A DNA stretch of 38,148 nucleotides from Planctomycetota bacterium. GTDB lineage: Bacteria > Planctomycetota > Planctomycetia > Pirellulales > Pirellulaceae. Positions 3,079 to 34,581 of the stretch are shown piece after piece. The translations under genes were made by a program, and so were the position numbers. The notes below the pieces were generated by a model. That model ran no database searches, was not told the origin of the DNA, and saw nothing but the letters and a program-made list of their open reading frames with translations. How positions within the stretch are numbered: the first letter of the stretch is position 1; each line of letters opens with the position of its first letter. The stretch is taken from positions 1-38,148 of the forward strand of contig JAQCHP010000036.1 of the NCBI GenBank assembly GCA_027619595.1, written 5' to 3'.

Positions 3079-3261
3079 AGACCACCCGCACCGAACGCGA
3101 GAACTTGGAACATTTGAAGCTATCTCACATGAGACCAACATCGCTTCGAATCAGGAGGGGAAGCTTTCTACGACGCGGAGTGTTATATTCGTTGTGTTGG
3201 ACCTATCACACGCGTCCAAGCGGCAATTTGGCAGATTCCAGCCAGTTTCAAGGGGTTGAGC

Positions 3262-4095
3262 ATGATTACCATGTGGAAGCAGTTGATGGTGATAATCGCT
3301 ATCGCATTGAGCGCCTGTGCGGTCGGGCTTGCCGATGACGCAATTTTTTCTGGACCGCAAGTTGGCGATAAACTCGTCCCATTTAAGGTAAAGGGATTCT
3401 TCGAACCCGATGCTGGTAAGGAATTGGATTTTGTCAAAGCGTCGGCCGGCGGACCGATCTTGCTTGTTTTTATCCACGAGGTAAATCGTGAATCCCTGGG
3501 ATTTGCACGGCAGTTGACTCGGTACAGCATCGGAGTCGAGGGGTTGCAAACCGGCCTCACTTGGTTAGCGGACGACGTCACCGAAGCGGAGAACAACTTG
3601 AAACGCACCGGTCATGCGTTGCAAAGAAAGGCGCCGACTGGCATTTCTATGGACGGTGGCGAAGGACCAGGTGTGTATGGCCTCAATCGAAATGTATCTC
3701 TCACCGTGCTCGTGGGCAAAGAAGACCGAGTGACAGCGAATTTTGCGCTTGTTCAGCCGAGTATTCAGGCGGACTTGCCCCGGGTACTGGAAGCGATTGC
3801 GGGCGTCACGGGAGGGACTGTGGCGACGCTCGATGACTTGTTAATCGTTCGTCACCCGCGGCTCCAAGGTCCACTCATGCAACTGGCCGATCGCGATGCA
3901 AGTCCCGAGGATGTCGATCGTCACGCAACAAACATCGAAACCCTCATCAAGCGAGACGAAACGGCAGGTAAAGAGTTGGGACGTGTGACGAGCCAAATCT
4001 TGAGCAACGGAACATTGAGCAAACAGGGGACCACCCGGGCACAAGAATATCTAGAGAAATGGGCCCAAGAGTACGGAGGCTCAGCTTCGCCATGA
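3262..4095 (+). CDS. Secreted redoxin-fold protein lacking the CxxC motif (probable lipoprotein)
   Basis: This 277-residue protein starts at ATG 3262, preceded by AGGGG at 3250-3254; an in-frame TTG at 3256 is less likely. The N-terminus is a signal sequence with a good lipobox, LSAC, at residues 16-19, so C19 may be lipidated. The body begins like a peroxiredoxin/thioredoxin-type domain (PQVGDKLVPFKVKGF, then PILLVFIHEVN). Where redoxins carry their catalytic cysteine, this protein reads FIHEVNRES, with no Cys, so it is unlikely to do disulfide chemistry. The C-terminal third is helical. Its stop codon overlaps the ATG of the DUF1549 gene (ATGA), so the two are translationally coupled. It probably acts as a periplasmic accessory of that system; the fold assignment is moderate and the function unknown. 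Confidence 0.7.
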   Translation: MITMWKQLMVIIAIALSACAVGLADDAIFSGPQVGDKLVPFKVKGFFEPDAGKELDFVKASAGGPILLVFIHEVNRESLGFARQLTRYSIGVEGLQTGLTWLADDVTEAENNLKRTGHALQRKAPTGISMDGGEGPGVYGLNRNVSLTVLVGKEDRVTANFALVQPSIQADLPRVLEAIAGVTGGTVATLDDLLIVRHPRLQGPLMQLADRDASPEDVDRHATNIETLIKRDETAGKELGRVTSQILSNGTLSKQGTTRAQEYLEKWAQEYGGSASP

Positions 4096-6203
4096 TTTCC
4101 GCGGTAGTCTGGCTCTTGATTTGTGGGCCCGTAGTCAACACATCGAGCGATTTTGATACGGAGATCATGCCGGTCCTGACTCGATCGGGTTGCAATGTTG
4201 GCTCGTGTCATGGAGCGGCGGCTGGACGAGGCGGGTTTCATCTATCGTTGTTGGGGGGCGATGTCGACGCGGACTACTCGGCCATCGTCCAGCAATTCGA
4301 AGGAAGGCGAATCAATTTAGCCCATCCGGAAAAGAGTTTGCTGCTGCGCAAGCCCACACTGGAAGTCGATCATGAAGGGGGCCATGCGATCCAACCCGAA
4401 GGCGCCGAGAGGCTACTCTCTTGGATCGCCGCCGGAGCGCCACGCGTCCGTGCTCGGACGCTAAAAAACTTCGAATGTGATGCCTCCCATCACTTAGTCG
4501 AGCAGATCGGTGAGCAGGTGGCGCTCCGCGCCGTAGCTCATTTTGATCATGGAACGAGCGAAGATGTATCCGCCTGGACGGTGTTTGTGGCAACCGACCC
4601 AGCCACCGTAACCTTAGATGCCTCGACGCGTACAGCAACTATCCTGCGACGCGGACAACATACGATCATCGCTCGCTACTTGGATCGCGTTATCCCCATC
4701 CGTATCGCACTTCCGTTGTCCGATGTGCCGGTCGACCACAGCCGCGAACCGATCGCCAATTTCATCGACGAACACATTCTTCGCACACTCACGGACCTAC
4801 GGTTAACCGTCTCGCCGGTCGCTGACGACGCGACCTATCTGCGACGCGTTACACTCGACTTGATCGGCAGGCTTCCCACGCGCGAAGAGACGGTGGCCTT
4901 CCTAGCCGGTGACGGCGATGCATCCACGCGTCGCCGGGAACGGGTTGATCGGCTGCTGGAAAGTGACACATTTGCAAAATATTGGACGTATCACGTATTG
5001 AACCTCTTACGTGTCGTGCCGACGCCCAATGACAGGCATGCTGCACAAGCCTACCACACGTGGATGCTACAGCAGATCCGCAATCGAGTTCCCATGAATC
5101 AGATCGCCCGCGAACTATTGACCGCCGTCGGCGATACGCACCAGGTGGGTCCAGCCAACTTTTCGCGTTCATCTCCCGACGCGCGCGCGCAGGCGGAGTT
5201 GGTCAGTCGCGCCTTCATGGGGGTTCGGATGCAATGCGCCAATTGCCATAATCATCCACTCGATCGATGGACACAGGATGATTATCACGGTTTGGCGGCC
5301 GTGTTCGCTCGGTTAGAACGGGGAGAGGTTGTGAAATTGACCCGGCAGGGCGCCGTGACCAATGTCCGCACCGGCGAACGAGCTATCCCACGCATCCCAG
5401 GCCTAAGGTACCTGCCGGTCGATGAAGATGGACGCGAAACTCTAGCCGATTGGCTGGCGTCACCTGAAAATCCCTACTTCGCCCGATCGTTCGTGAATCG
5501 ACTGTGGCGCGGCGCATTCGGACGAGGATTAGTCGAACCACCGGATGACATGCGTGCCACCAATCCAGCCACGCATCCGGAACTGCTAGACCATCTCGCT
5601 TTCGACTTCATAGAACATGGCTACGATTTGCGGCACACGCTGCGGCGCATCGTCAACAGCGTGACCTACGCGCGAAGTGGTGCAACCGATAACGTTAACA
5701 GGGACGACGATCGGTTTTATTCACACGCACTCCAACGACCGCTGGAACCCGCGGTTCTGGCTGACGCCCTTTATGACGCCACGGGTGTCTCCGACACGTA
5801 TGGCGACGAGCCGAAAGGGACGCGAGCTGTGGAATTGGTCGATATCTTGACCCCGTCCGAGGCGCTCGACACGCTCGGTCGCTGTTCGCGTAACGAGTCG
5901 TGCGAAAACGTATTGGTGTCCGGATCGCTACCTACCAAACTGCACCAACTCAATGGCGACCTTGTCAATCGCAAGGTCGTATCGCCCGACGGCTACCTCC
6001 ATCGCCTATTGGCTACCAATGCCGAAACAGCGGATATTGTGGCGGACATTTATTTGCGTGCTTTATCGCGACCCCCGACCGACACAGAAAGGGACTATTG
6101 GCTAGAACAGATTTTCGCTGCGGAGCTAGACCATCGCGTACAGATACTGGAAGACATTCAATGGGGCGTGTTGAACTGTAGCGAATTCCTGCTCAATCAC
6201 TAG
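4092..6203 (+). CDS. DUF1549/DUF1553 planctomycete cytochrome-like secreted protein
   Basis: This is a 703-residue exported protein. The start at 4092 is chosen because ATGA overlaps the previous stop; a hydrophobic signal follows directly. Next comes a cytochrome-like segment with CNVGSCHG at residues 34-41, which is CX4CH rather than the usual CXXCH. A beta-rich, Ig-like stretch of about 100 residues follows. DUF1549 begins near residue 215 (ANFIDEHILRTL, RVTLDLIGRLPT) and contains a regular CXXCH in QCANCHNHPLDRW near 381-393. DUF1553 follows (LADWLASPENPYFARSFVNR, then RIVNSVTYARS). The family is expanded in Planctomycetes and normally paired with DUF1501, as here. Heme binding is likely but unproven, and the biochemical role of the family is not established. 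Confidence 0.9.
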   Translation: MISAVVWLLICGPVVNTSSDFDTEIMPVLTRSGCNVGSCHGAAAGRGGFHLSLLGGDVDADYSAIVQQFEGRRINLAHPEKSLLLRKPTLEVDHEGGHAIQPEGAERLLSWIAAGAPRVRARTLKNFECDASHHLVEQIGEQVALRAVAHFDHGTSEDVSAWTVFVATDPATVTLDASTRTATILRRGQHTIIARYLDRVIPIRIALPLSDVPVDHSREPIANFIDEHILRTLTDLRLTVSPVADDATYLRRVTLDLIGRLPTREETVAFLAGDGDASTRRRERVDRLLESDTFAKYWTYHVLNLLRVVPTPNDRHAAQAYHTWMLQQIRNRVPMNQIARELLTAVGDTHQVGPANFSRSSPDARAQAELVSRAFMGVRMQCANCHNHPLDRWTQDDYHGLAAVFARLERGEVVKLTRQGAVTNVRTGERAIPRIPGLRYLPVDEDGRETLADWLASPENPYFARSFVNRLWRGAFGRGLVEPPDDMRATNPATHPELLDHLAFDFIEHGYDLRHTLRRIVNSVTYARSGATDNVNRDDDRFYSHALQRPLEPAVLADALYDATGVSDTYGDEPKGTRAVELVDILTPSEALDTLGRCSRNESCENVLVSGSLPTKLHQLNGDLVNRKVVSPDGYLHRLLATNAETADIVADIYLRALSRPPTDTERDYWLEQIFAAELDHRVQILEDIQWGVLNCSEFLLNH

Positions 6204-6269
6204 GTACAGGTACCCTTCAACGCAATACATAGATCGGTAATCGATGGATTTACCTGGGAGGACATAACC

Positions 6270-7589
6270 ATGTTCCAAAGATGCGATGGAATCGGTCGCC
6301 GCGATGTGCTCCGCGTGGGCGGCCTGGGCGCGTTAGGCATATCGCTATTCAGCGGAAGGCAACCTCGCCCGGCATTGGCGGGTGCCCCGCGGGCAAAAGC
6401 GTGCATCTTGTTGTGGCTCGATGGCGGCCCCAGCCATTTGGAAACATTGGATGTTAAGCCCGACGCGCCGTCCGAGGTGCGCGGACCTTTCCGACCCATT
6501 CCGACCCGTGTGACTGGCACATTTGTTTCGGAGGTACTGCCGAACACGGCCAAAATCACCGACAAGATTGCCATTATTCGATCGATGACCTCCCCGTTCG
6601 GCGAGCACGGGTTGGCCAACGAATATTTGTTATCGGGGCACCAGCCGACTCCCGTACTTCATTACCCAAGCTATGGATCGGTGGTCGCCAAAATGCGCGA
6701 CAACGCCAGTGATTTGCCTGCGTACGTCGCCATTCCAGACGTCGACGCACCGGCCGGCCATGGTTTCCTCGGCTCCGAGTTCGGTCCATTTGCGATCGGA
6801 GGCGATCCGTCGAAGATTGACTTTCGAGTTCGCGACCTCGATTTCTATCCCGGTGTGAACTCGCATCGTATGCAACGGCGACGAGACATGGTGGCGCAGC
6901 TGGAACGATTCCAGCGAGCAGCCGACTTCGGCAGTCTCACGGTCGACCGCGGGCCGGATTCGCGATTCGAACAGGCCTACCGCATGGTCACATCGCCGCA
7001 AACCAAGCGGGCATTTGATTTGTCTGCGGAGCCTCAAGATGTACGCGCCAAATACGGGCTGGGGTTCTTTGGCCAAAGCTGTTTGATGGCGCGTCGGCTA
7101 ATTGAAAGTGGCGTCGCGTTTGTGACAGTGAATTTTACGGGCTGGGACACGCACGACAGCTTGGTCTTGCGTCTGAAGGATGGCTACTCGGGCGCGAAAG
7201 TCGGTGTTGGCTTGGCTCCGACCTTCGATCATGGTTTCGCGTCGCTGGTCGAAGACCTCGCTGATCGTGGCATGTTGGACCATACGCTGGTTATCGCGAT
7301 GGGAGAATTCGGCCGCACGCCAAAGCTCAATACGCGCGACGGTCGCGACCATTGGCCGCGAGTCTTCAGCCTCGTGATGGCGGGGGGCGGAGTCCATCCA
7401 GGAATCGTGGTTGGTGCCAGCGACGCCATCGGCGAAAGTCCCGCAGATCGTCCCGTCACCCCAAGCGATTTGGCTTACACCATCTATTACCTTCTGGGCA
7501 TCGATCCCGCGTTCGAACTGCACACGTCGGATGGTCGCCCCGTGCCAGTGAATCAAGGGGGCCAGCTCGTAAAGGAACTCCTTGCATGA
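6270..7589 (+). CDS. DUF1501 protein (alkaline phosphatase-like fold), Tat-exported
   Basis: This 439-residue protein starts at ATG 6270 behind a strong GGGAGGA ribosome binding site at 6256-6262. A twin-arginine signal is visible as GRRDVLRVGG at residues 9-18, followed by a hydrophobic stretch and an AxA-like site, so it is probably exported folded with metal bound. Family landmarks are ILLWLDGGPSHLETLD near 46-61, SPFGEHGLANEYLLSGHQ near 109-126, VNFTGWDTHD near 289-298, and GEFGRTPKLNTRDGRDHW near 347-364. DUF1501 belongs to the alkaline phosphatase/sulfatase structural group, but its reaction is unknown. The preceding DUF1549/1553 gene is its standard genomic partner. The following WD40 gene starts inside its stop codon (ATGA). 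Confidence 0.93.
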   Translation: MFQRCDGIGRRDVLRVGGLGALGISLFSGRQPRPALAGAPRAKACILLWLDGGPSHLETLDVKPDAPSEVRGPFRPIPTRVTGTFVSEVLPNTAKITDKIAIIRSMTSPFGEHGLANEYLLSGHQPTPVLHYPSYGSVVAKMRDNASDLPAYVAIPDVDAPAGHGFLGSEFGPFAIGGDPSKIDFRVRDLDFYPGVNSHRMQRRRDMVAQLERFQRAADFGSLTVDRGPDSRFEQAYRMVTSPQTKRAFDLSAEPQDVRAKYGLGFFGQSCLMARRLIESGVAFVTVNFTGWDTHDSLVLRLKDGYSGAKVGVGLAPTFDHGFASLVEDLADRGMLDHTLVIAMGEFGRTPKLNTRDGRDHWPRVFSLVMAGGGVHPGIVVGASDAIGESPADRPVTPSDLAYTIYYLLGIDPAFELHTSDGRPVPVNQGGQLVKELLA

Positions 7590-8581
7590 ACGTCTTGCCG
7601 TCGATGCCCGGCGCAGTACTGGCGTTCCTTGTGGCGACAGGTTGGCACACCGCACTCGATGCAAATGGCGATCCCCGCAGAGCCGACTCGGCTTCCACAC
7701 TGCCTCCCATCACGGCGATTGCCATCGATGAGAAGAACGGATGGGCGATCGCCGGATCACAGGCTGGTCTGGTAGTTCGCACATGGCCTGACCTCAACCA
7801 GATAAGAATGCTGCCGACCCACTTGGAAAATATCCACGATATGGCTTTGTCACCCGATGGTACCCTTCTACTGGTCGCGGGGGGCGATCCCGCAATCTCA
7901 GGCGCGGCGGAACTCTTTCACTGGCCGTCGGGTGAGTTGTGGAAACGGTTGGAGCCCCAGGCAGATCTCGTAATGGCCGTGGCTTGGCGAGACGACTCAA
8001 AACTATTCGCATTGGCGAGCGCCGACAATGTCGTCAAGACGTTCACACGAGCGGCCGCCGAATGCGTCGATGTGATCCAGGGACACTCACGATCCGTCCT
8101 GGCAGCCGCGTTCTTGCCCGGGGAACAGGGAATCGTCACCGCAGGCGTGGACGAGACCGTACGCTTGTGGGATTGTTCCCTCGTCCCGTCCGCCACAGCC
8201 GGTCCAAGAAAGACGTTCACCAATCATACTCGGCAAGTAGTTGGCTTGGCGGTACGACCAGCGCACCAAGATGCCACTCCCGTGATTGCCTCCATTGGTG
8301 AGGACAGCACGGTTCGGCTCTGGCAACCGACGGTCGGGCGCATGTTGCGTTTTGCTCGCGTAGATAGCGTGCCACTCGCGGTGTGCTGGATCGATCAGGG
8401 TAAGTCCTTGGCTGTGGCTTGCCGAGACGGCAAAGTTCGGATGGTCCATCCCGATACCGTCAAGGTCACTCACGTGCGCGACGCCTTGACAGGGCCCGCT
8501 TACTCCCTTGCCGCCGATGCAAGCGGAGCGTTGTTGGTCGGGGGAGTCGGTGGAGAACTGATGCGATTGCCATGCTTGTAA
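7586..8581 (+). CDS. Secreted WD40-repeat beta-propeller protein
   Basis: This 331-residue protein starts at ATG 7586, overlapping the DUF1501 stop by ATGA; the frame stays open much further upstream, but that part overlaps DUF1501. A signal-like N-terminus (PGAVLAFLVATGWHTALDA) is followed by roughly seven WD40 blades. Examples are VRLWDCS and VRLWQPT closing strands, and GH/NH dipeptides in QGHSRSVLAAAF and NHTRQVVGLAV. WD40 propellers are binding scaffolds. In planctomycetes they are often fused to or encoded beside PSCyt/DUF1549 proteins, so this one probably scaffolds the upstream products in the periplasm. It is the last gene of the operon, and the palindrome at 8607-8626 follows. Confidence 0.85.
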   Translation: MNVLPSMPGAVLAFLVATGWHTALDANGDPRRADSASTLPPITAIAIDEKNGWAIAGSQAGLVVRTWPDLNQIRMLPTHLENIHDMALSPDGTLLLVAGGDPAISGAAELFHWPSGELWKRLEPQADLVMAVAWRDDSKLFALASADNVVKTFTRAAAECVDVIQGHSRSVLAAAFLPGEQGIVTAGVDETVRLWDCSLVPSATAGPRKTFTNHTRQVVGLAVRPAHQDATPVIASIGEDSTVRLWQPTVGRMLRFARVDSVPLAVCWIDQGKSLAVACRDGKVRMVHPDTVKVTHVRDALTGPAYSLAADASGALLVGGVGGELMRLPCL

Positions 8582-8590
8582 GTTTGTGAA

Positions 8591-8626
8591 GACGGGCCTG
8601 GAGAACGACGGGCCTGGAGACCCGTC
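8591..8626. terminator. Duplicated motif with palindrome between convergent genes
   Basis: GACGGGCCTGGAGA occurs twice (8591-8604 and 8607-8620). The second copy forms a perfect hairpin with CCCGTC at 8621-8626: arms GACGGG/CCCGTC with an 8-base loop. It lies 25 bases after the WD40 stop and 6 bases from the end of the convergent methyltransferase gene, so it could stop or protect transcripts from both sides. No U tract is present, so intrinsic termination is uncertain. A dispersed palindromic repeat is the alternative. Confidence 0.5.
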
Positions 8627-8632
8627 CTACGG

Positions 8633-9592
8633 TTAGAGCTTCTCAAGCAGACAGAGGAAAAATGCATCCATACTGTCCGTTGGTAAAATACGTCGTGCAT
8701 GCACGACGTCGGGATGAAGCTCCTTGTCCAGCCATCGCGTGATACCCGGTTGCCAATTGTTGATCGGCAAATCCACGGGGACGACACGAACTTGCGCGCT
8801 GTTGCGTGCCAACAGGTGATGCACCACACACTCATTTTCTTCCGGTGCAAACGAACAAGTACTGTAGAGAATTCGACCGCCAGGCCGCGTCGCTTTCAGA
8901 GCAGACCTCAAGAGTCCTTTCTGTTTGCGCGACTGTTCTCGTATCTTCCGTAGGCTCCAGTATTGATACGTTTTCGGTTCATCCCAACGAAACCGTGCTT
9001 CACCGGAGCACGGCGCGTCCAGTAATACACGATCAAAGCGATCGGGGGTCTTGTTCCCTACAGTTCGTCCATCGGTCAGGTACGTGTGGCCAATCGTTAC
9101 GCCGTATTGCCGTAACATGGATTGGAGTTTGTAAAATCGAGTGCGAATCGGTTCGACAGCCGACAGCCAACCTGTATTTCGCATCATGGCCGCAAGTTGC
9201 GTCGTTTTTCCGCCGGGAGCCGCGGCTAAATCGAGCACTTGTTCGTCCGGTTCTGCGCCCAGAACGCGTACCGCCAACATGCTTGAAAGATTTTGCACAT
9301 AAACGTGTCCCATCGTAACCAGATCGCTGCCCACGATTTGTTCGCGATACTGAGACGACACCACAAACGCTTCAGGCAACCACTCGACAGCGGTCGCAGG
9401 CACGTCCAGACACGCCAGTCGTTCCCACACGTCGTCAACGTTGGCTAACAAAGTATTCACGCGTGCGCCGAATTGCCCGCACCCGCGAAACGCGGTCCAA
9501 CATGCGTGCCACGATTCGACGGGCAGAATGGACTCCAACCGCGTTACGAATTCTTGGGGGAAAGGGCTGGTTCTAGGATCAGGAATATTCAC
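8633..9592 (-). CDS. RsmF/Sun-like rRNA (cytosine-5) methyltransferase
   Basis: This 319-residue NOL1/NOP2/Sun family enzyme transfers a methyl group from S-adenosylmethionine to C5 of cytosine in RNA, most likely rRNA. The SAM site is LDLAAAPGGKTTQLA at residues 120-134. Motif IV is DAPCSGEARFRW at 192-203, with the release cysteine C195. Motif VI is STCSFAPEENE at 244-254, with the nucleophile C246. The N-terminal RNA-binding part (RVNTLLAN, then WLPEAFVV) is present. The C-terminal PUA-like extension of E. coli RsmF is absent, so this is a short form. Translation starts at GTG 9592. It is the last gene of the seven-gene minus-strand operon. Enzyme class is secure; target base and rRNA are not determined. 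Confidence 0.9.
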   Translation of the reverse strand: MNIPDPRTSPFPQEFVTRLESILPVESWHACWTAFRGCGQFGARVNTLLANVDDVWERLACLDVPATAVEWLPEAFVVSSQYREQIVGSDLVTMGHVYVQNLSSMLAVRVLGAEPDEQVLDLAAAPGGKTTQLAAMMRNTGWLSAVEPIRTRFYKLQSMLRQYGVTIGHTYLTDGRTVGNKTPDRFDRVLLDAPCSGEARFRWDEPKTYQYWSLRKIREQSRKQKGLLRSALKATRPGGRILYSTCSFAPEENECVVHHLLARNSAQVRVVPVDLPINNWQPGITRWLDKELHPDVVHARRILPTDSMDAFFLCLLEKL

Positions 9593-9634
9593 TTCGCACC
9601 CCCATCAGCTGAGTCAATCGTTGACGAGGACGCA

Positions 9635-10648
9635 TTACCGTGAAAACCACGCCATGAGAACCGAACCCACCGCTAGAATTGCCAGTCCCACGATCAAGAC
9701 AAGTTTCATGTTGGAAAAAGGGACTTCGCCGCAAATCTGTCCCGTTTGACCATTGATGACCGATCGGTACGGCCGACCCTGGTAGCGATAAGCGATCACC
9801 CACACCGGGAGCAGCACCGGATGGCTCGACATGTCGGCGATTCGGACGCTGACCCTCAGATTCCGAAACCTCTTGCGGAGGTAGGTTCCCGCACATGCGT
9901 TGCGTTCTTGATCTTCAATCCCGTGCCGGGCGAGTGGTCGGGCGTACTTGCGCGAGACTGAAAACTGTTCCACCATAAATCCATGAAGATTGACCTGTTC
10001 GAACGGCACAGACGCCGACACGTCAAACGGGCAGAGTTCCGCCGTCTCTTGTTGCGTCAGCACGCCACTGGCTCCCACCAAAAGTCCGCGGTAAGTTCCC
10101 TGATGGTTACCCGTTACGGGCCGCCAGTCACCCCGGCCCACGAATCCTTCTTTGGCCACGTCCGCTGTCCAATGCGTGTAGGTTCTGGCCGAAAAGTCCC
10201 AATAGGGTGCGTACACCGGCGCAATTTTGGTAACGACCGATTCGGTGACCACCCGGGCCGGGCGCCAAAAGCCTTTCCCCAACCATAAACGCAACAATTC
10301 TTCCGCTTGCCGCTTCTCCACAATAAACGGCACGACCCAATCGGGCTGAAGCGTCTTCGCCGGCGGTTTGATCTTGAGTTTTTCTGAACCGCAAAACGGG
10401 CAACGCAAAGCACCGGCCGATGCATCATAGCTCATGGAAGCACCGCAGCCGTCACAGCCAAAACAATGGCGCGCATCGACGGATTTCAAGTTGGATTCTT
10501 CGGACCGATCCGCATCGGGGACCGAACGGCCGCAATTTGAGCAAAACAGATCTTCTTCATCCACGAACCCACCACACACTTGGCATTTGAGTGGAATCCG
10601 TTTCGCTACGTGGGCGTCGTCGTTGGATGGGTGCAAAGTGGGCGGCAT
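9635..10648 (-). CDS. Zinc-ribbon protein with C-terminal membrane anchor, paralogue 1
   Basis: This 337-residue protein has two four-cysteine zinc ribbons near the N-terminus: C22/C25/C36/C39 (CQVCGG, CSNCGR) and C65/C68/C83/C86 (CDGCGA, CPFCGS). A conserved central domain follows, with PVYAPYWDFSART at about 144-156, HQGTYRGLLVGASG at 182-195, and SVINGQTGQICGEVPFS at 296-312. One transmembrane helix ends the protein (about 314-334). The same layout occurs in the neighbouring gene at 10659-11897, so they are tandem duplicates. Function is unknown. Such proteins are sometimes labelled TFIIB-type zinc-ribbon or PriA-like, but no helicase motifs are present. N-in topology with the ribbons in the cytoplasm is likely. 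It starts 10 bases after the paralogue ends. Confidence 0.8.
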   Translation of the reverse strand: MPPTLHPSNDDAHVAKRIPLKCQVCGGFVDEEDLFCSNCGRSVPDADRSEESNLKSVDARHCFGCDGCGASMSYDASAGALRCPFCGSEKLKIKPPAKTLQPDWVVPFIVEKRQAEELLRLWLGKGFWRPARVVTESVVTKIAPVYAPYWDFSARTYTHWTADVAKEGFVGRGDWRPVTGNHQGTYRGLLVGASGVLTQQETAELCPFDVSASVPFEQVNLHGFMVEQFSVSRKYARPLARHGIEDQERNACAGTYLRKRFRNLRVSVRIADMSSHPVLLPVWVIAYRYQGRPYRSVINGQTGQICGEVPFSNMKLVLIVGLAILAVGSVLMAWFSR

Positions 10649-10658
10649 AGCGGTCTGA

Positions 10659-11897
10659 TCAAAAGTTCCACTGATCGGGTTGGGCAGTCAAATAACGTAA
10701 CATCAGCACGATGGCTAGACAAATTAAGATACCTACAACAATGGCTATCGTGATTCGCCAGGTCGACAACGGTTTATCACCAACGACTTTGCCGGTCTGC
10801 CCATTGATCAGAAAGCGAAAGGATTTGCCACGATAGTCGTATTTCAAGAGATAGACCGGCAGGAAAATCAGATCGGTATCGACGTTGCGCAAAGTCGATT
10901 GCATTTGGAGTCCGCTGTGCGTGTCTCCTGGCAGAAACGCCCGAACGTGCTGCTCCTCTTGCGACAGGAAATACTGACGACTGGCTTGATCGGCGGATGC
11001 TCGATCGACTGAATATTCTTCACACGCCCAACCGGCTAAGAAGTAAGCTTGATAACGTTGGCAAGCTGCTAGATGAAATGGCTTGATCGATTCGGCTTCG
11101 GCTTGCGTCAGACCTCGACTGCCGGAAACCAAATATCCGGTATGGTACCGATGGTGCTTGCCGGCGAGCGGCCACCATTCCGTTTCGCGTACCGTGCGCG
11201 TTCGGTGATGTCTTTTTCCTTTCGCGTCCGTGACGGTATAGTGTTCCGTACGATACCAGTACTCACCAATGTTGGCACTCCAGTCACTTTCGGCCAAAAC
11301 AGAAAACACCCAAAATGGAAGATACACACCGCGCAACTTGTTTTCAATCTGAGCCGCACCAAGATCGGCCGGCCGATACCAATCGTTGCGATGAATCCAA
11401 TTCCGGAATGCTACGGCAGCGGCATGTGGATCGACGGCGAAGGGGATCAAAAAATCGGGATTGAGGCGTCCCTCCCGCCCCGCTGGATGTTCAATCACCA
11501 CATTCGATTCGCAAAATGGACAAGTGAAGCTGCGCTGTTGTTGCGAGACAGCGAGTTGACTTCCGCACTGCCGGCATTCGAATACGTGTTCTGACAGCGC
11601 AGGCGACTCAACGCTCGTGGCTGACGGGGAGTCGGTAGATGCTTGAGAAGGCGTAGGCGTCTGGGAGCGGGGGAGCGGGGACCTGGGAGGTGAGGAGTCG
11701 GCAGGCGGGGACTTAGGAGGCGTAAGGGGAGTGCGATGGGTCCCCTGATGCCCGCAGGCGGGACAAAAGTGACTGTGCAGATCGTAAGGAAAACCGCACT
11801 GGGAACAGGGCTCTCCTTGCGGCAAGGGCAAGTTTCGGTCCGTCGGCCGCGAATCGGCAATCAGCGACTTACTCGATGGCTTTGCGGCTTTCACCAA
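10659..11897 (-). CDS. Zinc-ribbon protein with C-terminal membrane anchor, paralogue 2
   Basis: This 412-residue paralogue of the downstream gene has two zinc ribbons (C31/C34/C45/C48 and C108/C111/C126/C129) separated by a Pro/Ser/Thr-rich low-complexity linker at about 55-102. The shared domain follows (VYLPFWVFSVLAESDW at 191-206, YHTGYLVSGSRGLTQ at 251-265, RFLINGQTGKVVGDKPLS at 361-378), then a transmembrane helix near 381-400. The second ribbon begins right after the linker, so the ribbon pair is stretched compared with paralogue 1. The start is TTG 11897 or GTG 11894. GGGGAGG in the last codons of ruvA provides the ribosome binding site, so translation should be coupled to ruvA. Function is not recognised. 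Confidence 0.8.
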   Translation of the reverse strand: MVKAAKPSSKSLIADSRPTDRNLPLPQGEPCSQCGFPYDLHSHFCPACGHQGTHRTPLTPPKSPPADSSPPRSPLPRSQTPTPSQASTDSPSATSVESPALSEHVFECRQCGSQLAVSQQQRSFTCPFCESNVVIEHPAGREGRLNPDFLIPFAVDPHAAAVAFRNWIHRNDWYRPADLGAAQIENKLRGVYLPFWVFSVLAESDWSANIGEYWYRTEHYTVTDAKGKRHHRTRTVRETEWWPLAGKHHRYHTGYLVSGSRGLTQAEAESIKPFHLAACQRYQAYFLAGWACEEYSVDRASADQASRQYFLSQEEQHVRAFLPGDTHSGLQMQSTLRNVDTDLIFLPVYLLKYDYRGKSFRFLINGQTGKVVGDKPLSTWRITIAIVVGILICLAIVLMLRYLTAQPDQWNF

Positions 11898-25596: not shown

Positions 25597-27075
25597 ATGT
25601 CCGAAACTCAAAATCCAGCGCACGGCCATGACGGTCAGCACCGACGGAGTGCTTCCTCGGGTCGCGGACCCCATCAAGTCCCGCGGAACGGTCCTGTCTC
25701 CCGTCCCCTGACTTTGGAAGAGGAACTCGATCAACAAGAGCCACTGACATTAGCGGAAGAAATTGCCGAGGAATCAGATCGCACGGGACGCTTGCCACGC
25801 GACGGTGGTTCACCGGTTAACGGCAGTGAGTTGCAAAAAATGAATATTACGCAACTCATCGAAGAAGCGCGCAAAGAAAACGTGACCGAAGTCGCCGGCC
25901 TGAAGAAACAGGACCTGATTTTCCACATTCTCAAAGAACGTGTGAAAATGAATGGGCTGATGTACGGAGAGGGGACGCTCGAAATTCTTCCCGACGGGTT
26001 CGGTTTCCTGCGGAGCCCCGACTATCACTACCTGTCGTGCCCCGACGACATTTATGTGTCGCCCAGCCAGATTCGGCGGTTTGGGCTGAAAACGGGTGTT
26101 ACCGTCTCAGGGCAGATCCGGCCCCCCAAGGAGAACGAACGTTATTTTGCCCTGCTACGTGTCGAAGCGATAAATCACCAAGAGCCCAATCTGATGGCGG
26201 GGCGGGTGAACTTTGATGACCTCACGCCGCTCCATCCCAACTCACGAATCGTGTTGGAGACCACGGGCCCGATGATCGAAACTCGCGTCGTCGACCTGAT
26301 TGTACCGATCGGATTTGGGCAGCGCGGCCTGATCGTCAGTCCCCCGCGAGCTGGCAAGACGATCCTGATGCAGAAAATCGCCAAGGCGGTCCTGACAAAC
26401 TATCCTAACGCGTATGTCATGATGCTCTTGATCGACGAACGCCCCGAAGAGGTCACCGACATGGAACGGGAGATTCGCAGCGAAAACTGCGAAGTGATCA
26501 GTTCCACCTTCGACGAACCGGCATCCCGCCATATACAAGTTTCCGAAATGGTCATCGAAAAAGCGAAGCGCATGGTCGAGTACGGCTATGACGTTGTACT
26601 TTTCTTGGATTCCATCACTCGCTTAGCACGGGCTTGGAATTCTGAATGCACTCAATCAGGAAAAATCTTGTCAGGTGGCCTCGATGCCAATGCATTGCAA
26701 CGACCCAAACGATTCTTCGGTTCCGCCCGGAAAGTGGAAGAAGGTGGATCGCTAAGCATTATTGCGACGGCTCTGGTGGAGACGGGCAGTAAGATGGACG
26801 ACGTGATCTTCGAAGAATTCAAAGGGACGGGAAACCTTGAAATCGTGCTCGATCGCAAGTTGGTCGACAAACGCATTTGGCCGGCGATCGATATTAGCCG
26901 CAGCGGAACTCGTCGCGAAGAGATGTTATTTGACCCGGAAGAACACCGGCGTGTCTCAATTCTGCGCAGAGTTTTCAGCGAAATGAATCCTCCCGATGCC
27001 ATGGAATGGCTGGTCACGCGACTGGCCAAGTCCAAATCCAACGCAGAATTTCTTATGAGCATGAACATGAAGTAA
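25597..27075 (+). CDS. rho: Transcription termination factor Rho
   Basis: This 492-residue hexameric RNA-dependent ATPase terminates transcription. After a Gly/Pro/Glu-rich N-terminal extension of about 78 residues comes the Rho N-terminal helix bundle (about 80-118, [15 protein letters not shown]). The RNA-binding cold-shock domain follows ([17 protein letters not shown] at 125-141). Then comes the RecA-like motor with Walker [13 protein letters not shown] at 248-259, Walker [17 protein letters not shown], and the secondary RNA-binding Q/R loops ([27 protein letters not shown]). It is longer than E. coli Rho (419) owing to the extension and a small insert in the cold-shock domain. ribH follows after 25 bases. 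Confidence 0.97.
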
Positions 27076-28436: not shown

Positions 28437-29465
28437 GTGGGAATCTTTGATCGTTTTCGTCGATCCGCGACGTCAGCCGCTACGACCTCGGTCACGTCGC
28501 CCGATTCGGCAACCGTGGCTGCCGAGCAAAAGGGAATATTTGCGAGACTTAAACAAGGCCTGCAGAAAACGACGCGACTGCTCCAGACCGATGTGCGGGA
28601 TCTGTTCAAGAGTCAAGGACAGCTACTGGACGAGGACTTTCTGAACCAGCTTTTTGCGCTCCTTGTCCGAACTGATATGGGGGTCGGACCAGCGCAAGAA
28701 GTTCGTACCGAAGTGCAAGAGCACTTCCGCGGACGTGTGGTCGAAATGGAAGAGCTACTGGGATTCGTCCGTGCAAAACTTCTGACGATCATGACCGGTG
28801 ACGAAGCCGAAGAACCTTTGCGACGTGCCGCCAGTGGCCCTACGGTGATGCTGGTCGTCGGCGTCAATGGATCGGGAAAAACGACGAGCATCGCGAAACT
28901 AGCACAATTGATGCGGAACGAAGGACATTCCGTAGTGCTCGGCGCCGGCGATACCTTTCGCGCCGCAGCGGTTCAGCAACTCACCGTCTGGGCCGAACGT
29001 GTAGGAGCGGAGATTGTGACGGCACCGACGGGGAGTGATCCAGCCAGTGTCGCGCACCGCGCGGTGGCGCGCGCGATCGAAAAACCGTGCGATATTTGCA
29101 TCATCGACACGGCCGGACGACTTCAGACACAAACCAACCTCATGGAAGAACTCACGAAGGTAAGGCGTGTCATTGCCAAATTGATCCCCGATGCACCCCA
29201 TGAAGTGCTCTTAGTCCTGGATGCCACCGCCGGACAAAACGGCATTAGCCAAGCCAAAGGCTTCAGCGATGCGGTGCAATGCACAGGGATCGTTCTTTCC
29301 AAGTTGGATGGAACGGCCAAGGGTGGAGTGGTCATCCCGATCCGACGTCAGTTTGAGCTGCCGGTGAAGTTCGTGGGGGTCGGCGAGGGGGCGGACGATC
29401 TCGTGAGGTTCGAGCCACAAGCGTTCGTGGATGCCTTATTTTCCGAAACAACGGTCGGCCTCTAG
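28437..29465 (+). CDS. ftsY: Signal recognition particle receptor FtsY
   Basis: This 342-residue SRP GTPase docks ribosome-nascent chain complexes at the membrane. It starts at GTG 28437 with GGAGGA at 28421-28426. The N domain (about 30-125) is followed by the G domain: GVNGSGKTTSIAKLA near 142-156, the GDTFRAAAVQQL insertion-box region near 177-188, DTAGRLQTQ near 223-231, and SKLDGTAKGG near 288-297. The C-terminal GVGEGADDLVRFEP is diagnostic of FtsY. The long acidic A domain of E. coli is missing, as in many bacteria. It probably shares a transcript with nusB. Confidence 0.97.
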   Translation: MGIFDRFRRSATSAATTSVTSPDSATVAAEQKGIFARLKQGLQKTTRLLQTDVRDLFKSQGQLLDEDFLNQLFALLVRTDMGVGPAQEVRTEVQEHFRGRVVEMEELLGFVRAKLLTIMTGDEAEEPLRRAASGPTVMLVVGVNGSGKTTSIAKLAQLMRNEGHSVVLGAGDTFRAAAVQQLTVWAERVGAEIVTAPTGSDPASVAHRAVARAIEKPCDICIIDTAGRLQTQTNLMEELTKVRRVIAKLIPDAPHEVLLVLDATAGQNGISQAKGFSDAVQCTGIVLSKLDGTAKGGVVIPIRRQFELPVKFVGVGEGADDLVRFEPQAFVDALFSETTVGL

Positions 29466-31520: not shown

Positions 31521-31645
31521 TCGTTGAATCGGTCAGCTACCGGAAGTAGTCTGCGGTCGCAATTTGTGGTAGGCTAAAGCCGCTAATTTTTTTACCCGTC
31601 GAACGCAAACGAGCGGCATCGGACGCACTCGTGCGAGAATCCATC

Positions 31646-33223
31646 ATGAAGCTCAGTGCGGCCGGCCAACCGATTTTATTTGTCGTGGTACTCGCAGCCG
31701 TCGGCGCGCTACTAATTTATGTACCCGGCGTTCTCGTCGAAAAATACCAAATCGTGAAAGAGTTAGGCTCGTTTTGGGGCGGACTCTATTTGGCGGTGGT
31801 AGGTACTGGAGCCATCGCACTTCTTGCCAGCGGCGGGGGGGGCGTAGGGAAGATGTGGGGAGCCGCACGTCGAAAACGTCAACGGCGGATGCGCCGCGCG
31901 AAGAACCCAAGTCAACTTTCGCGCGACGAATTGACAGCTGAGATGCAGCACAACCTTGACGCTGCGGCCCAAGTGGCAACTGCCGACGACACCAACTCCC
32001 TGGTACGTCAGGAGTTGACACCAGAGATCTCGCGACTGTTGGCCAAACGCGAAGCACAACAGCTGGAGATCGTCGCGTTTGGCACGATCTCCAGTGGCAA
32101 GTCGTCGCTGCTCAACATGCTGGCCGGACGGGAGGTCTTCTCCACCGATCTACGTGGGGGTACCACGATGCAACGCAACGAAATCCCCTGGCCAGGACAT
32201 GACCGGATCACACTCGTTGATACTCCGGGTTTGGGAGAGGTGGACGGTTCACAACGGGCAAGCATTGCGGCCGACGCGGCCATTGATGCCGATATGGTAC
32301 TGCTTGTGGTTGACGGCCCGTTGCGACAGACCGAATTCGAACTACTGCAAAAACTGCACGCGATGGAGAAACGCATTCTCATCTGTTTAAATAAAGAAGA
32401 CTGGTACGCGCCCTCGGAACGAGATGAACTGATCCAACAAATTCAAGAACAAACGACTGCAATTGTGCAATCCGAAGACGTTGTTGCCTTACGATCACGA
32501 AGCACATCGCGCCGTCGAGTCAGGATTCTTCCCGACGGTAGCCAAGCCGAAGAAGAGGTGACAATTCCCCCAGAAATTCAACCACTAGCCGATCGCATGC
32601 TCCGCATCGTCAAACGCAACGGGACCGACTTACTGATGGCTAATTTGCTTCTGCAGTCGCGTGGACTCATGGACGAAGCCAAACTACGAGTGCGAGAATC
32701 GTTGGACCAGCGTGCCTGGCAGATCGTCGAATGGTATATGTGGCGTGCGGGAGGTGCTGCGGCGCTCAGTCCATTTCCCTTCGTTGACTTGGCCGTCGGT
32801 TGCGCCATCTCCACCAAGATGGTGGTTGATTTGGCACGCGTCTACCGCCAAGACATCGATTTCAACCTAGCCTCGCAATTACTGGGGCAACAAGGAAAGA
32901 ATCTGATCTCCATCCTCGGAACCAACGCCATCCAACCGGCGATTGCCATGATGGTAGGATCCCTGCTCAAAACAGTTCCTGGGGTGGGGACGCTTACTGG
33001 CGGTGCCCTGCAAGGAATTGTACAGGCGCTCGTGACGCGTTGGATTGGTGCCGTGTTCATCGAATACTTTAAGCAAGAATCGGCAGATCCCGGGGCGGGC
33101 CTGGCGGAAATTACGCGCCAACAGTGGGGACGAATGACAAGCATCGAAGAATTGCGACGCCTCGTAGCCAACGCGCGACAAATGCGTACAGAGGCCGCCA
33201 CCGAGACGGATGAAACACCATGA
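31646..33223 (+). CDS. Membrane-anchored dynamin/Era-like GTPase with DUF697-like C-terminus
   Basis: This 525-residue protein starts at ATG 31646 (GTG 31631 is an in-frame alternative, adding five residues). Two hydrophobic helices (about 8-30 and 44-62) are followed by a basic stretch RRKRQRRMRRAK. The GTPase core has G1 GTISSGKSS at 146-154, G3 DTPGLGE at 192-198, and G4 NKED at 249-252. The C-terminal part, about 370-480, is hydrophobic (LSPFPFVDLAVGCAIS, TVPGVGTLTGGALQGIVQAL) as in DUF697/YcjF-type domains. The ATGA at its end overlaps the start of a second, related GTPase. The pair may form a heteromeric membrane-remodelling or stress-response GTPase; function unknown. Confidence 0.85.
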   Translation: MKLSAAGQPILFVVVLAAVGALLIYVPGVLVEKYQIVKELGSFWGGLYLAVVGTGAIALLASGGGGVGKMWGAARRKRQRRMRRAKNPSQLSRDELTAEMQHNLDAAAQVATADDTNSLVRQELTPEISRLLAKREAQQLEIVAFGTISSGKSSLLNMLAGREVFSTDLRGGTTMQRNEIPWPGHDRITLVDTPGLGEVDGSQRASIAADAAIDADMVLLVVDGPLRQTEFELLQKLHAMEKRILICLNKEDWYAPSERDELIQQIQEQTTAIVQSEDVVALRSRSTSRRRVRILPDGSQAEEEVTIPPEIQPLADRMLRIVKRNGTDLLMANLLLQSRGLMDEAKLRVRESLDQRAWQIVEWYMWRAGGAAALSPFPFVDLAVGCAISTKMVVDLARVYRQDIDFNLASQLLGQQGKNLISILGTNAIQPAIAMMVGSLLKTVPGVGTLTGGALQGIVQALVTRWIGAVFIEYFKQESADPGAGLAEITRQQWGRMTSIEELRRLVANARQMRTEAATETDETP

Positions 33224-34581
33224 GCGACTCGACCGGCGATTTGAAAGGGATCGACGAGAAGCCGAACTCGGCCTACTTCGATGAGGCAGTAGCGTTGTTG
33301 GAGCGTTCGTTAAGCGTCTTCGAGCGGTGCGGGCCGGAAGAGCGTGCGGCCCTGCGGCAGGACCTAGAACACCTCCGCTCGATGGAATCGAAGCTCACCG
33401 CTGGCCGAGTAGAAATAGCTGTGTTTGGTGAAATTAGCACTGGCAAATCGGCACTCATCAACGCGTTGATCGGAAGACCGGTGGCTGAGGTCAATGTCCG
33501 CGGTGGCTGGACCAAAGATGCTCGTTCTTTGGCCTGGGAGAACGGGTATCACATCCCTGGGCTTGGCAACTCCCAAGTGATCCTCATCGACACGCCTGGC
33601 TTGAATGAGGTGGAAGGCGAAAAACGGGCGTCCATCGCGCGCGAAGTTGCCAGGCGTGCCGACCTGATACTCTTCGTTACCGATTCGGATCTCAACGAAA
33701 CCGAGTACTCCGCGCTCGTCGCCTTGGCATCGGTCAATAAGCCGATCATCGTGGTGCTCAATAAAATCGATTTGTATACCGACGAGGAACGAATTCGCCT
33801 GTTAGAAATCCTGCGTCAAGAGCGGCTACGTTTGATCCGTATCAGCGGCGACATCGTTTGTACGGCAGTCGATCCTCGCACCGTTGAGCACGTAATCGTC
33901 GACGCACAAGGCCGAGAAAAATCGGAATGGAGAAAACCGCCGATTCACGTAGAAGATCTCAAGGTGCGCATCCTGGAAGTGCTCGAACGCGATGGACTCG
34001 ACTTGGTCGCATTAAATGCCGCGCTTTTTGCCGCCGACACCAACGACCGCGTTGCTCAGCTGCGAGTGCAATTGCGCAATAATCGCGCCAACGGAGCCAT
34101 TTGGAGCTTCGCCGCCGTCAAAGCGCTCGTTGTGTCGCTCAATCCCATTCCAGTTGCGGATATCCTCGGTGGATTGGCTATTGACGGAACGATGGTCGTC
34201 ACGTTGGCTCACTTGTACGGATTGTCATTAAATCGCAGTCATGCGCACCGTCTCATCCGATCGATCGCCCATGCTGCCGGCTGGGTCATGGTCGGCGAAT
34301 ATATCACGCATCTACTTTCGCTTACCATGAAGGGGCTTACCCTAGGCATCATTACGCCCTTGTCGGCCATCCCCCAAGGAGCCGCCGCTGGTTACGGATC
34401 GTACATCGTGGGACAAGCAGCCAAATACTATTTTGAACATGGAGCCAGCTGGGGCCCTGAGGGTGCTAAGCAGGTGGTCCGCAGGATCTTGGAGCAAACC
34501 GACAAGGAATCGGTCATTGAGCACCTCAAGGACGAAATCCGCCGGAAATTGGACAGAAATCAACACTCGTCCCGGAACTAA
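33220..34581 (+). CDS. Second Era/dynamin-like GTPase with DUF697-like C-terminus
   Basis: This 453-residue protein starts inside the stop codon of the upstream GTPase. It has G1 GEISTGKSA at 70-78, G3 DTPGLNE at 124-130, and G4 NKIDLYTD at 181-188. Unlike its neighbour it has no N-terminal membrane helices; residues 18-60 are helical. The C-terminus (about 300-420) again shows the DUF697-like pattern LNPIPVADILGGLAIDGTMV with following hydrophobic helices, so it may insert peripherally in the membrane. Shared architecture and translational coupling argue that the two proteins work together. A hairpin at 34592 follows the stop. Confidence 0.85.
   Translation: MSDSTGDLKGIDEKPNSAYFDEAVALLERSLSVFERCGPEERAALRQDLEHLRSMESKLTAGRVEIAVFGEISTGKSALINALIGRPVAEVNVRGGWTKDARSLAWENGYHIPGLGNSQVILIDTPGLNEVEGEKRASIAREVARRADLILFVTDSDLNETEYSALVALASVNKPIIVVLNKIDLYTDEERIRLLEILRQERLRLIRISGDIVCTAVDPRTVEHVIVDAQGREKSEWRKPPIHVEDLKVRILEVLERDGLDLVALNAALFAADTNDRVAQLRVQLRNNRANGAIWSFAAVKALVVSLNPIPVADILGGLAIDGTMVVTLAHLYGLSLNRSHAHRLIRSIAHAAGWVMVGEYITHLLSLTMKGLTLGIITPLSAIPQGAAAGYGSYIVGQAAKYYFEHGASWGPEGAKQVVRRILEQTDKESVIEHLKDEIRRKLDRNQHSSRN

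Follow-up and report, generated by a model that had tools for sequence, protein, structure and literature searches.

The stretch of DNA analysed here (the window, 38,148 nucleotides) is contig JAQCHP010000036.1 (contig C107) of a Planctomycetota bacterium of the family Pirellulaceae, whose assembly, GCA_027619595.1, comprises 5.18 Mb in 281 contigs. It carries two overlapping genes, A and B, each encoding a GTPase that ends in the domain of unknown function DUF697, and the stop codon of A lies under the start codon of B in the tetranucleotide ATGA. Both the coordinates of the genes and this junction agree with the original prediction for the locus (Table 1). Frame A also offers a GTG at 31631 as an alternative start; the ATG at 31646, the start used here, lies 145 codons upstream of the P-loop, and at least 14 relatives have an ATG at the identical distance from that motif as the earliest start codon of their frame A.

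Table 1. Features of genes A and B in the window, with an example locus of the second gene pair, C/D
Feature	Position	Strand	Basis or remark
Gene A, anchored DUF697 GTPase, 525 amino acids (530 from GTG 31631)	31646..33223	+	Reading frame, Pfam, start comparison
A, first N-terminal hydrophobic segment, residues 13-31	31682..31738	+	Kyte-Doolittle 2.67; such a segment in 91/91 pairs
A, second N-terminal hydrophobic segment, residues 43-61	31772..31828	+	Kyte-Doolittle 1.77; second segment in 90/91 pairs
A, basic linker, residues 60-90, net charge +10	31823..31915	+	Median +7, range 0 to +10 over 91 pairs
A, G1/P-loop GTISSGKS	32081..32104	+	Motif reading
A, switch I motif GGTT	32156..32167	+	Motif reading
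A, G3 DTPG	32219..32230	+	Motif reading
A, G4 NKED	32390..32401	+	Motif reading
A, DUF697 domain	32651..33127	+	Pfam
ATGA overlap, A stop codon under B start codon	33220..33223	+	Sequence
Gene B, DUF697 GTPase without N-terminal hydrophobic segments, 453 amino acids	33220..34581	+	Reading frame, Pfam, hydropathy
B, G1/P-loop GEISTGKS	33427..33450	+	91/91 pairs
B, switch I motif GGWT	33502..33513	+	91/91 pairs
B, G3 DTPG	33589..33600	+	Motif reading
B, G4 NKID	33760..33771	+	Motif reading
B, DUF697 domain	34030..34503	+	Pfam
Example C/D locus L203	D 3655-5253, C 5241-6413	-	

The C-termini, which had been described as DUF697-like, proved to be true Pfam matches to DUF697 (PF05128) in both proteins, with 91.4 bits in A and 116.2 bits in B against a gathering cut-off of 27.7. 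The GTPase part is matched by MMR_HSR1 (A 57.8, B 63.8 bits; cut-off 21.9) and, with lower scores, by Dynamin_N (A 43.3, B 51.3 bits; cut-off 27). Every orthologue scanned, 73 of A and 57 of B, matched both DUF697 and MMR_HSR1 (E <= 0.01), and every one also matched Dynamin_N; a chance origin of these domains is excluded by this conservation. Beyond A and B, the assembly holds no further match to DUF697 or to Dynamin_N at E <= 0.001. DUF697 proteins themselves occur from E. coli to cyanobacteria, as control matches indicated.

What sets the two proteins apart is the part that precedes the GTPase domain. We collected 120 pairs, 91 of which remained after the removal of duplicates, and read the hydropathy in the open frame before G1 and not from an assigned start. 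In A, the first hydrophobic window reaches at least 1.83 in 91/91 pairs and the second at least 1.3 in 90/91, whereas the highest hydrophobic window of any B is 0.79. The claim that only the first protein carries N-terminal membrane helices and a basic linker is therefore borne out in 90 of the 91 distinct pairs. Over the rest of their length the proteins are paralogues, since a comparison of their profiles aligns 424 columns at 27% identity; the paralogy extends along the entire shared length, and the N-terminal 90 residues of A are extra. The two GTPases had also been credited with the same G1, G3 and G4 motifs. All three are indeed intact in both proteins, but the P-loop and switch I are paralogue-specific: A shows G-[TAS]-[IV]-S-[SCG]-GKS among the variants listed and, in 90/91 pairs, GGTT, and B keeps its own versions of both motifs without exception. 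Such fixed differences between A and B are expected of two subunits with unlike roles, though they are no proof of contact.

The two genes occur together almost without exception. In a survey of 246 genomes of the order, where presence was called at E <= 1e-40, both genes were found in 66, B alone in one, A alone in none and neither in 179, and the carriers are spread over five families (f1, f83, f86, f91 and f93). The sole genome with B only (G466) is 76% complete and its contig begins inside B. An independent distribution of the two genes, which had been named as an outcome that would refute the idea, was not what this survey gave, as A and B are together in 66 of the 67 genomes with either. 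In a draw of 100 genomes from the family, 57 had a strong A or B and 52 had both, some of them cut by contig ends: the contigs of three B-only genomes (G049, G051, G093) start just upstream of or in B, and that of one A-only genome (G056) ends just behind A. Among the named loci (80 of 137 relatives), 73 of 80 show B, complete or truncated at a contig end, in the fetched flank; of the seven others, four end at or soon behind A, and three match the genomes G039, G057 and G307, to which we return below. Among the carriers in culture are Blastopirellula marina DSM 3645, Adhaeretor mobilis, Bythopirellula polymerisocia and two Botrimarina species. The junction itself is less constant than the pairing: in the 73 pairs with a B start that could be placed at ATG or GTG, this codon lies exactly at the 4-base overlap in 19, and the gap exceeds 200 bases in 4.

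The most telling genomes are those in which the genes have been separated and both were kept, six in all, from five genera. In G018, a single contig of 9.6 Mb, A lies near 7.26 Mb and B near 0.88 Mb; in G318, a single contig of 6.6 Mb, they lie near 6.21 and 0.54 Mb; in G057 and G039, each gene is well inside a different contig; and in G405 and G341, which belong to one genus, the two are about 63-65 kb apart on opposite strands. G307 is a possible further case; its contig with B measures 3 kb, and the gene lies at its edge. This retention of both genes after their separation is the strongest evidence for a joint function and, together with the conserved asymmetric layout, it upholds the idea of the pair as a unit. 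Presence of A/B is a lineage trait: it agrees within 31 of the 32 genera having two sampled genomes, against a maximum of 26 in 2,000 shuffles of the labels. In the tree, A and B fall into two clades with one branch between them (support 1.0, length 2.1), and the tree distances of the two correlate at 0.85, with a maximum of 0.14 in 500 permutations.

Some loci depart from this picture or lie outside it. In one genome (G040, contig C1131; loci L045 and L118), an in-frame TAA interrupts A and leaves B intact, owing either to a pseudogene or to an assembly error, and these broken rows were left out of the A alignments. Another bin (G084) contains two complete A/B pairs, on contigs C39 and C56 (L067, L068); its contamination estimate is 2%, and the pair on C39 scores almost like that of G032, from the same genus. 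Four loci with other or weak DUF697 matches (L172-L175), in which phmmer matched neither A nor B, were set aside, and a plasmid search with B returned two records, just one of them annotated, as HydF.

Across the phylum the pair is rare. A survey of 199 genomes of the phylum, with three of the window's own order among the rows listed, found a full-length A or B in two, both from the window's own family, and all other matches scored below 60 bits with partial coverage, mostly over the GTPase domain. The pair is thus not pan-planctomycete and belongs to certain lineages only, so that the earlier guess, taken for all planctomycetes, is too wide. It had also been linked to the extensive membrane invaginations of planctomycetes; this link does not hold in any general form, because full-length A or B is missing from 197 of the 199 genomes of the phylum and from 43 of the 100 of the family, so that the pair cannot be the general cause of planctomycete invaginations. 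Three A/B pairs (L148, L152 and L154) come from metagenome-assembled genomes labelled Phycisphaeraceae, which may be mislabelled bins or cases of rare transfer.

By crossing weak DUF697 matches with Dynamin_N matches in the 100 family genomes, we found a second pair of genes, C and D. There are 25 weak DUF697 places, of which 20 were fetched for this work; those in G050, G052 (its second), G056 and G096, all A/B-positive genomes, were left out, and the second place of G054, also outside the set, was fetched separately. C and D are adjacent in 17 of the 20 fetched loci (L202-L213, L215, L217, L218, L220 and L221); among the remaining three, D is accompanied by a short DUF697 frame in one locus, C stands without D in another, and both genes are missing from the last. 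In 13 of the 17 adjacent pairs a start codon stands at a 4-base overlap. C, of about 395 amino acids, has the P-loop GKT-x-[SA]-GK[ST], lacks an N-terminal hydrophobic segment and, in the proteins scanned, matches DUF697 weakly (30-32 bits). D, which follows C, has about 535 amino acids, with N-terminal hydrophobic segments, a linker of ~220 amino acids and a GTPase domain nearer the C terminus; its P-loop is mostly GQV[KN]AGKS, and the two D proteins scanned match Dynamin_N with 48-66 bits and have no DUF697. The first hydrophobic window of D reaches at least 2.0 in 18/18 proteins, and the second at least 1.3 in 12/18. No NKxD motif was found in C or D. When aligned with hhalign, C matches B over 300 columns (98%), and the match of D to A (99%) spans 114 columns, within the GTPase domain only. 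The two systems are alike in their overlapping GTPase genes, in the DUF697 domain of one partner (C) and in the N-terminal hydrophobic segments of one partner (D). They are unlike in that the anchored partner of C/D comes second and not first, in the absence of DUF697 from the two D scanned and in the lack of a detected NKxD motif. The likeness of D to A is looser than could be wished.

The two pairs are seldom found in the same genome. In the order survey, where D was called at E <= 1e-20, D occurs in 31 of 246 genomes, 2 of which also have A/B and 29 of which do not, when 8.4 shared genomes would be expected (Fisher 0.004 by genome, 0.057 by genus). In the family draw, fetched C/D loci are present in 14 of the 43 genomes without A/B, versus 4 of the 57 that carry it (Fisher 0.001, which becomes 0.03 if the four unfetched A/B-positive candidates are all real). 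A/B and C/D tend to exclude each other, although not strictly, and shared ancestry may explain part of this. One family genome without A/B (G024, contig C7, positions 3175-11141, minus strand) contains four consecutive Dynamin_N matches, in frames of 651, 856, 577 and 650 amino acids, a dynamin cluster.

In the window, a BBP2 porin gene lies upstream and a gene for a TPR protein downstream (Pfam), neither in a family that recurs in at least 4 of the 61 compared loci. Further upstream are an SRP54-type GTPase gene (28437-29462) and, before it, a Rho gene (25597-27072; both Pfam), and 25 kb from A/B there is a gene pair of the PSCyt2/PSD1 and DUF1501 families (4059-7589). These are also the most frequent neighbour families over the 60 fetched loci (DUF1501 in 17, PSCyt2/PSD1 in 12), at varied distance and on varied sides; they are presumably many-copy families. 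The recurrent neighbours with Pfam names are completed by ABC2-type membrane, CNNM and Exo_endo_phos proteins. A conserved third gene beside the pair was not seen, no neighbour family being present in more than 17 of the 60 fetched loci. Several seemingly recurrent clusters turned out to be alternative reading frames, either in the GTPase genes (55, 44 and 12 loci) or in the genes for DUF1501 and PSCyt2 (9 and 7 loci), and were dropped. A promoter scan yielded one weak site, compared with 2.1 in shuffles.

AlphaFold2 models of B (predicted local distance difference test, pLDDT, 82.5; predicted template-modelling score, pTM, 0.72) and A (pLDDT 79.8, pTM 0.68) both show an Era-like GTPase domain with a beta hairpin insert, a 63-residue helix after this domain and other helices as well. 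Within the DUF697 part, stretches of moderate hydrophobicity are modelled with lower confidence. The top Foldseek matches are LeoA, mitofusins and the dynamin pair of C. jejuni for B, and IRG proteins (Irgb10, Irga6 and Irgb6; TM-scores 0.21-0.34) for A, whose sequence profile also matches Irgb10 at positions 86-252; the IRG family model PF05049 (IIGP) gives 19.6 bits with A and 15.9 with B, below its cut-off of 24. In the VIA comparison, B aligns with the yeast mitofusin Fzo1 (9kfe) through residues 11-285 (249 residues, Z 18.2, root-mean-square deviation 5.2), an alignment that reaches the GTPase-adjacent helices only; the absence of any family from the VIA lists is uninformative. On these models, the GTPase domain and its adjoining helices may be read as resembling the dynamin/IRG plan, with the remainder unplaced. 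As for the earlier label of dynamin/Era-like GTPases, its first half finds support in the Dynamin_N matches of both proteins, but by structure the GTPase domains stand closest to Era.

Adjacent genes for bacterial dynamin-like GTPases, thought to act as heteromers on membranes, offer a precedent for such a pair, as passages of PMC6104087 present it. The DLP1/DLP2 proteins of C. jejuni, likewise encoded by adjacent GTPase genes according to the same passages, resemble A/B in that chains of both are in the Foldseek top 50 for A and for B and in the Dynamin_N matches above cut-off. They differ in several respects: the TM-scores are 0.20-0.32, A and B are shorter (525 and 453 amino acids versus proteins of 71 and 85 kDa), the C-terminal part of A/B is DUF697, and one of the partners is anchored N-terminally.

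Altogether, the sequences suggest that A and B probably form a heteromeric membrane GTPase. The second pair, in which again a single partner carries the anchor, follows a similar logic and counts in favour of this. That they are an obligate pair we hold to be highly likely; if they are, membrane remodelling as their task is a balanced call. The best explanation as a whole, in which A and B are obligate subunits of a heteromeric, membrane-bound GTPase working on the membrane, we consider about as likely to be right as wrong. In such a machine, A would sit in the cytoplasmic membrane through an N-terminal helical hairpin, with its basic linker and its GTPase and DUF697 domains in the cytosol, as the positive-inside rule would predict. 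B would be soluble alone and held at the membrane by A. The two GTPase domains, with their fixed A-specific and B-specific residues in P-loop and switch I, would most likely pair face to face in an assembly driven by GTP, and the bilayer would receive the movement through the long helices and the hydrophobic tips of both DUF697 domains. Deforming, tethering or mending the membrane would be the most likely job. The gene pair with its domains, the conserved asymmetry, the joint inheritance and the keeping of both genes once separated are what the data show; direct contact between A and B, their topology and the GTP-driven assembly are what we infer from them, the membrane job is our guess, and membrane shaping is plausible.

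A number of observations weigh against this explanation. The TM-scores of the Foldseek matches to dynamins and IRGs are 0.18-0.35, for partial matches, and the best Z in VIA (about 19) belongs to proteins of the Era/YsxC type, over the GTPase domain. Hydropathy windows are no topology predictor, and in the parallel system C/D, 6/18 D proteins have a weak second hydrophobic segment, while the residues that follow this segment in D do not form a clearly basic linker (-2 to +3). One genome (G055, 85% complete) has A in the middle of a contig and no B was found in it. The correlation of the tree distances of A and B, having no control gene beside it, mostly shows vertical descent; the co-inheritance of the two genes follows in part from shared ancestry and linkage. 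Finally, A/B must be non-essential to these cells, because its presence is patchy even in the family (57/100 genomes).

The main rival is a membrane-stress GTPase switch like YcjX/YcjF of E. coli, which would sense envelope damage and signal or recruit without any shaping of its own; we regard it as possible, at a low probability. The ycjX and ycjF genes are laid out alike, with a 4-base overlap between the gene of a P-loop protein and that of a DUF697 inner-membrane protein, and YcjF has two N-terminal hydrophobic segments (1.31 and 1.88) followed by a mildly basic stretch (+3 in 30 residues). Yet YcjX is a DUF463 protein that can barely be aligned with B (hhalign 2.5%, 32 columns around the P-loop), DUF463 is not among the Pfam matches of A or B, and YcjF, which is without a GTPase domain, has a weak profile match to both (hhalign probability about 20%). 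In Proteobacteria, ycjX-like genes are often found with the Psp operon, as ycjXF is in Yersinia enterocolitica, but the same excerpts of PMC9239133 term YcjXF non-Psp-response-associated and the Psp link unknown. In the 100 family genomes, PspA/IM30 (PF04012) is not associated with A/B, which is present in 7 of the 14 genomes with a strong PspA versus 50 of the 86 others (Fisher 0.58), nor is there an association when PF04012 is scored above its cut-off, in 25 family genomes (Fisher 1.0; low-complexity matches of G027 left out). A conflict or defence switch, similar to the paired TRAFAC "DO-GTPases", seems improbable to us. According to the portions of Kaur et al. on these double GTPases (PMC7159879), they come as two paralogous copies in 38% of systems, side by side, ~13% have N-terminal transmembrane segments, and planctomycetes are included. 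Moreover, the PADLOC models LeoBC (B 67, A 49 bits) and LeoA match both proteins over the GTPase domain, though with the NCBIfam LeoA model NF041922 the scores (A 18.6, B 21.7 bits) fall below a cut-off of 325. Unlike in those systems, the 60 fetched loci show no recurrent neighbour of the GAP1 or effector type, with no GAP1-specific model in the search, and no DO-GTPase model, which Pfam probably includes, came up in the Pfam scans of A, B (E <= 1) and their orthologues. Presence is also stable in lineages (31/32 genera), which we take to speak against a mobile defence gene; because nothing variable recurs beside the pair and its presence rarely differs within a genus, a conflict role becomes less likely.

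Two further readings start from family and structure matches. That the pair regulates transport or the uptake of carbon, a role put forward for the cyanobacterial slr1306, reportedly a putative component of CO2 concentration, is in our judgement quite improbable. The slr1306 family (NF049994) is the best NCBIfam match of both proteins, with a near full-length alignment to A (residues 59-487), yet the scores, 192.2 bits for A and 121 for B, are far below the family cut-off of 490 bits. Genes of the microcompartment shell (PF00936), present in 91 of the 100 family genomes, are not associated with A/B, which occurs in 6 of the 9 genomes without them (Fisher 0.73), and the most widespread transporter family, that of an ABC2-type membrane protein, reaches no more than 9 of the 60 fetched loci. 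Least probable would be ordinary ribosome-assembly GTPases of the Era/Der kind with an extra domain. The structural matches to Era and YsxC-type proteins cited above favour this view; against it stand the membrane anchor of A, the Pfam results, which list neither KH nor any different RNA-binding domain in the two proteins, and the lack of a strong A or B in 43 of the 100 family genomes.

The heteromeric membrane GTPase that we favour for A/B may tentatively be placed in a wider class, although we doubt this more than we believe it: two-part bacterial membrane GTPase machines based on DUF697, apart from the classical dynamins, each a couple of P-loop or DUF697 proteins with overlapping genes, exactly one N-terminal helical anchor and at least one DUF697 domain. 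A/B, C/D and YcjX/YcjF would be builds of this class, A/B and C/D would stand in for each other in separate lineages, and each would be a heteromer in GTP-dependent membrane work. Neither the domains nor paired GTPases as such are new. A DUF697 pair of one anchored and one free protein seems undescribed, as does its counterpart C/D, no account of the A/B pair having come up among the open papers listed in searches that had subscription journals and preprints outside their range.

The membrane organisation of planctomycetes is a matter of dispute, with published abstracts to be found on opposite sides. For these bacteria, the A/B pair offers a possible dynamin-like membrane machine. For the family of domains, which is still named after its unknown function, a pair of anchored and free proteins that are kept together turns the role of DUF697 into a two-protein question.

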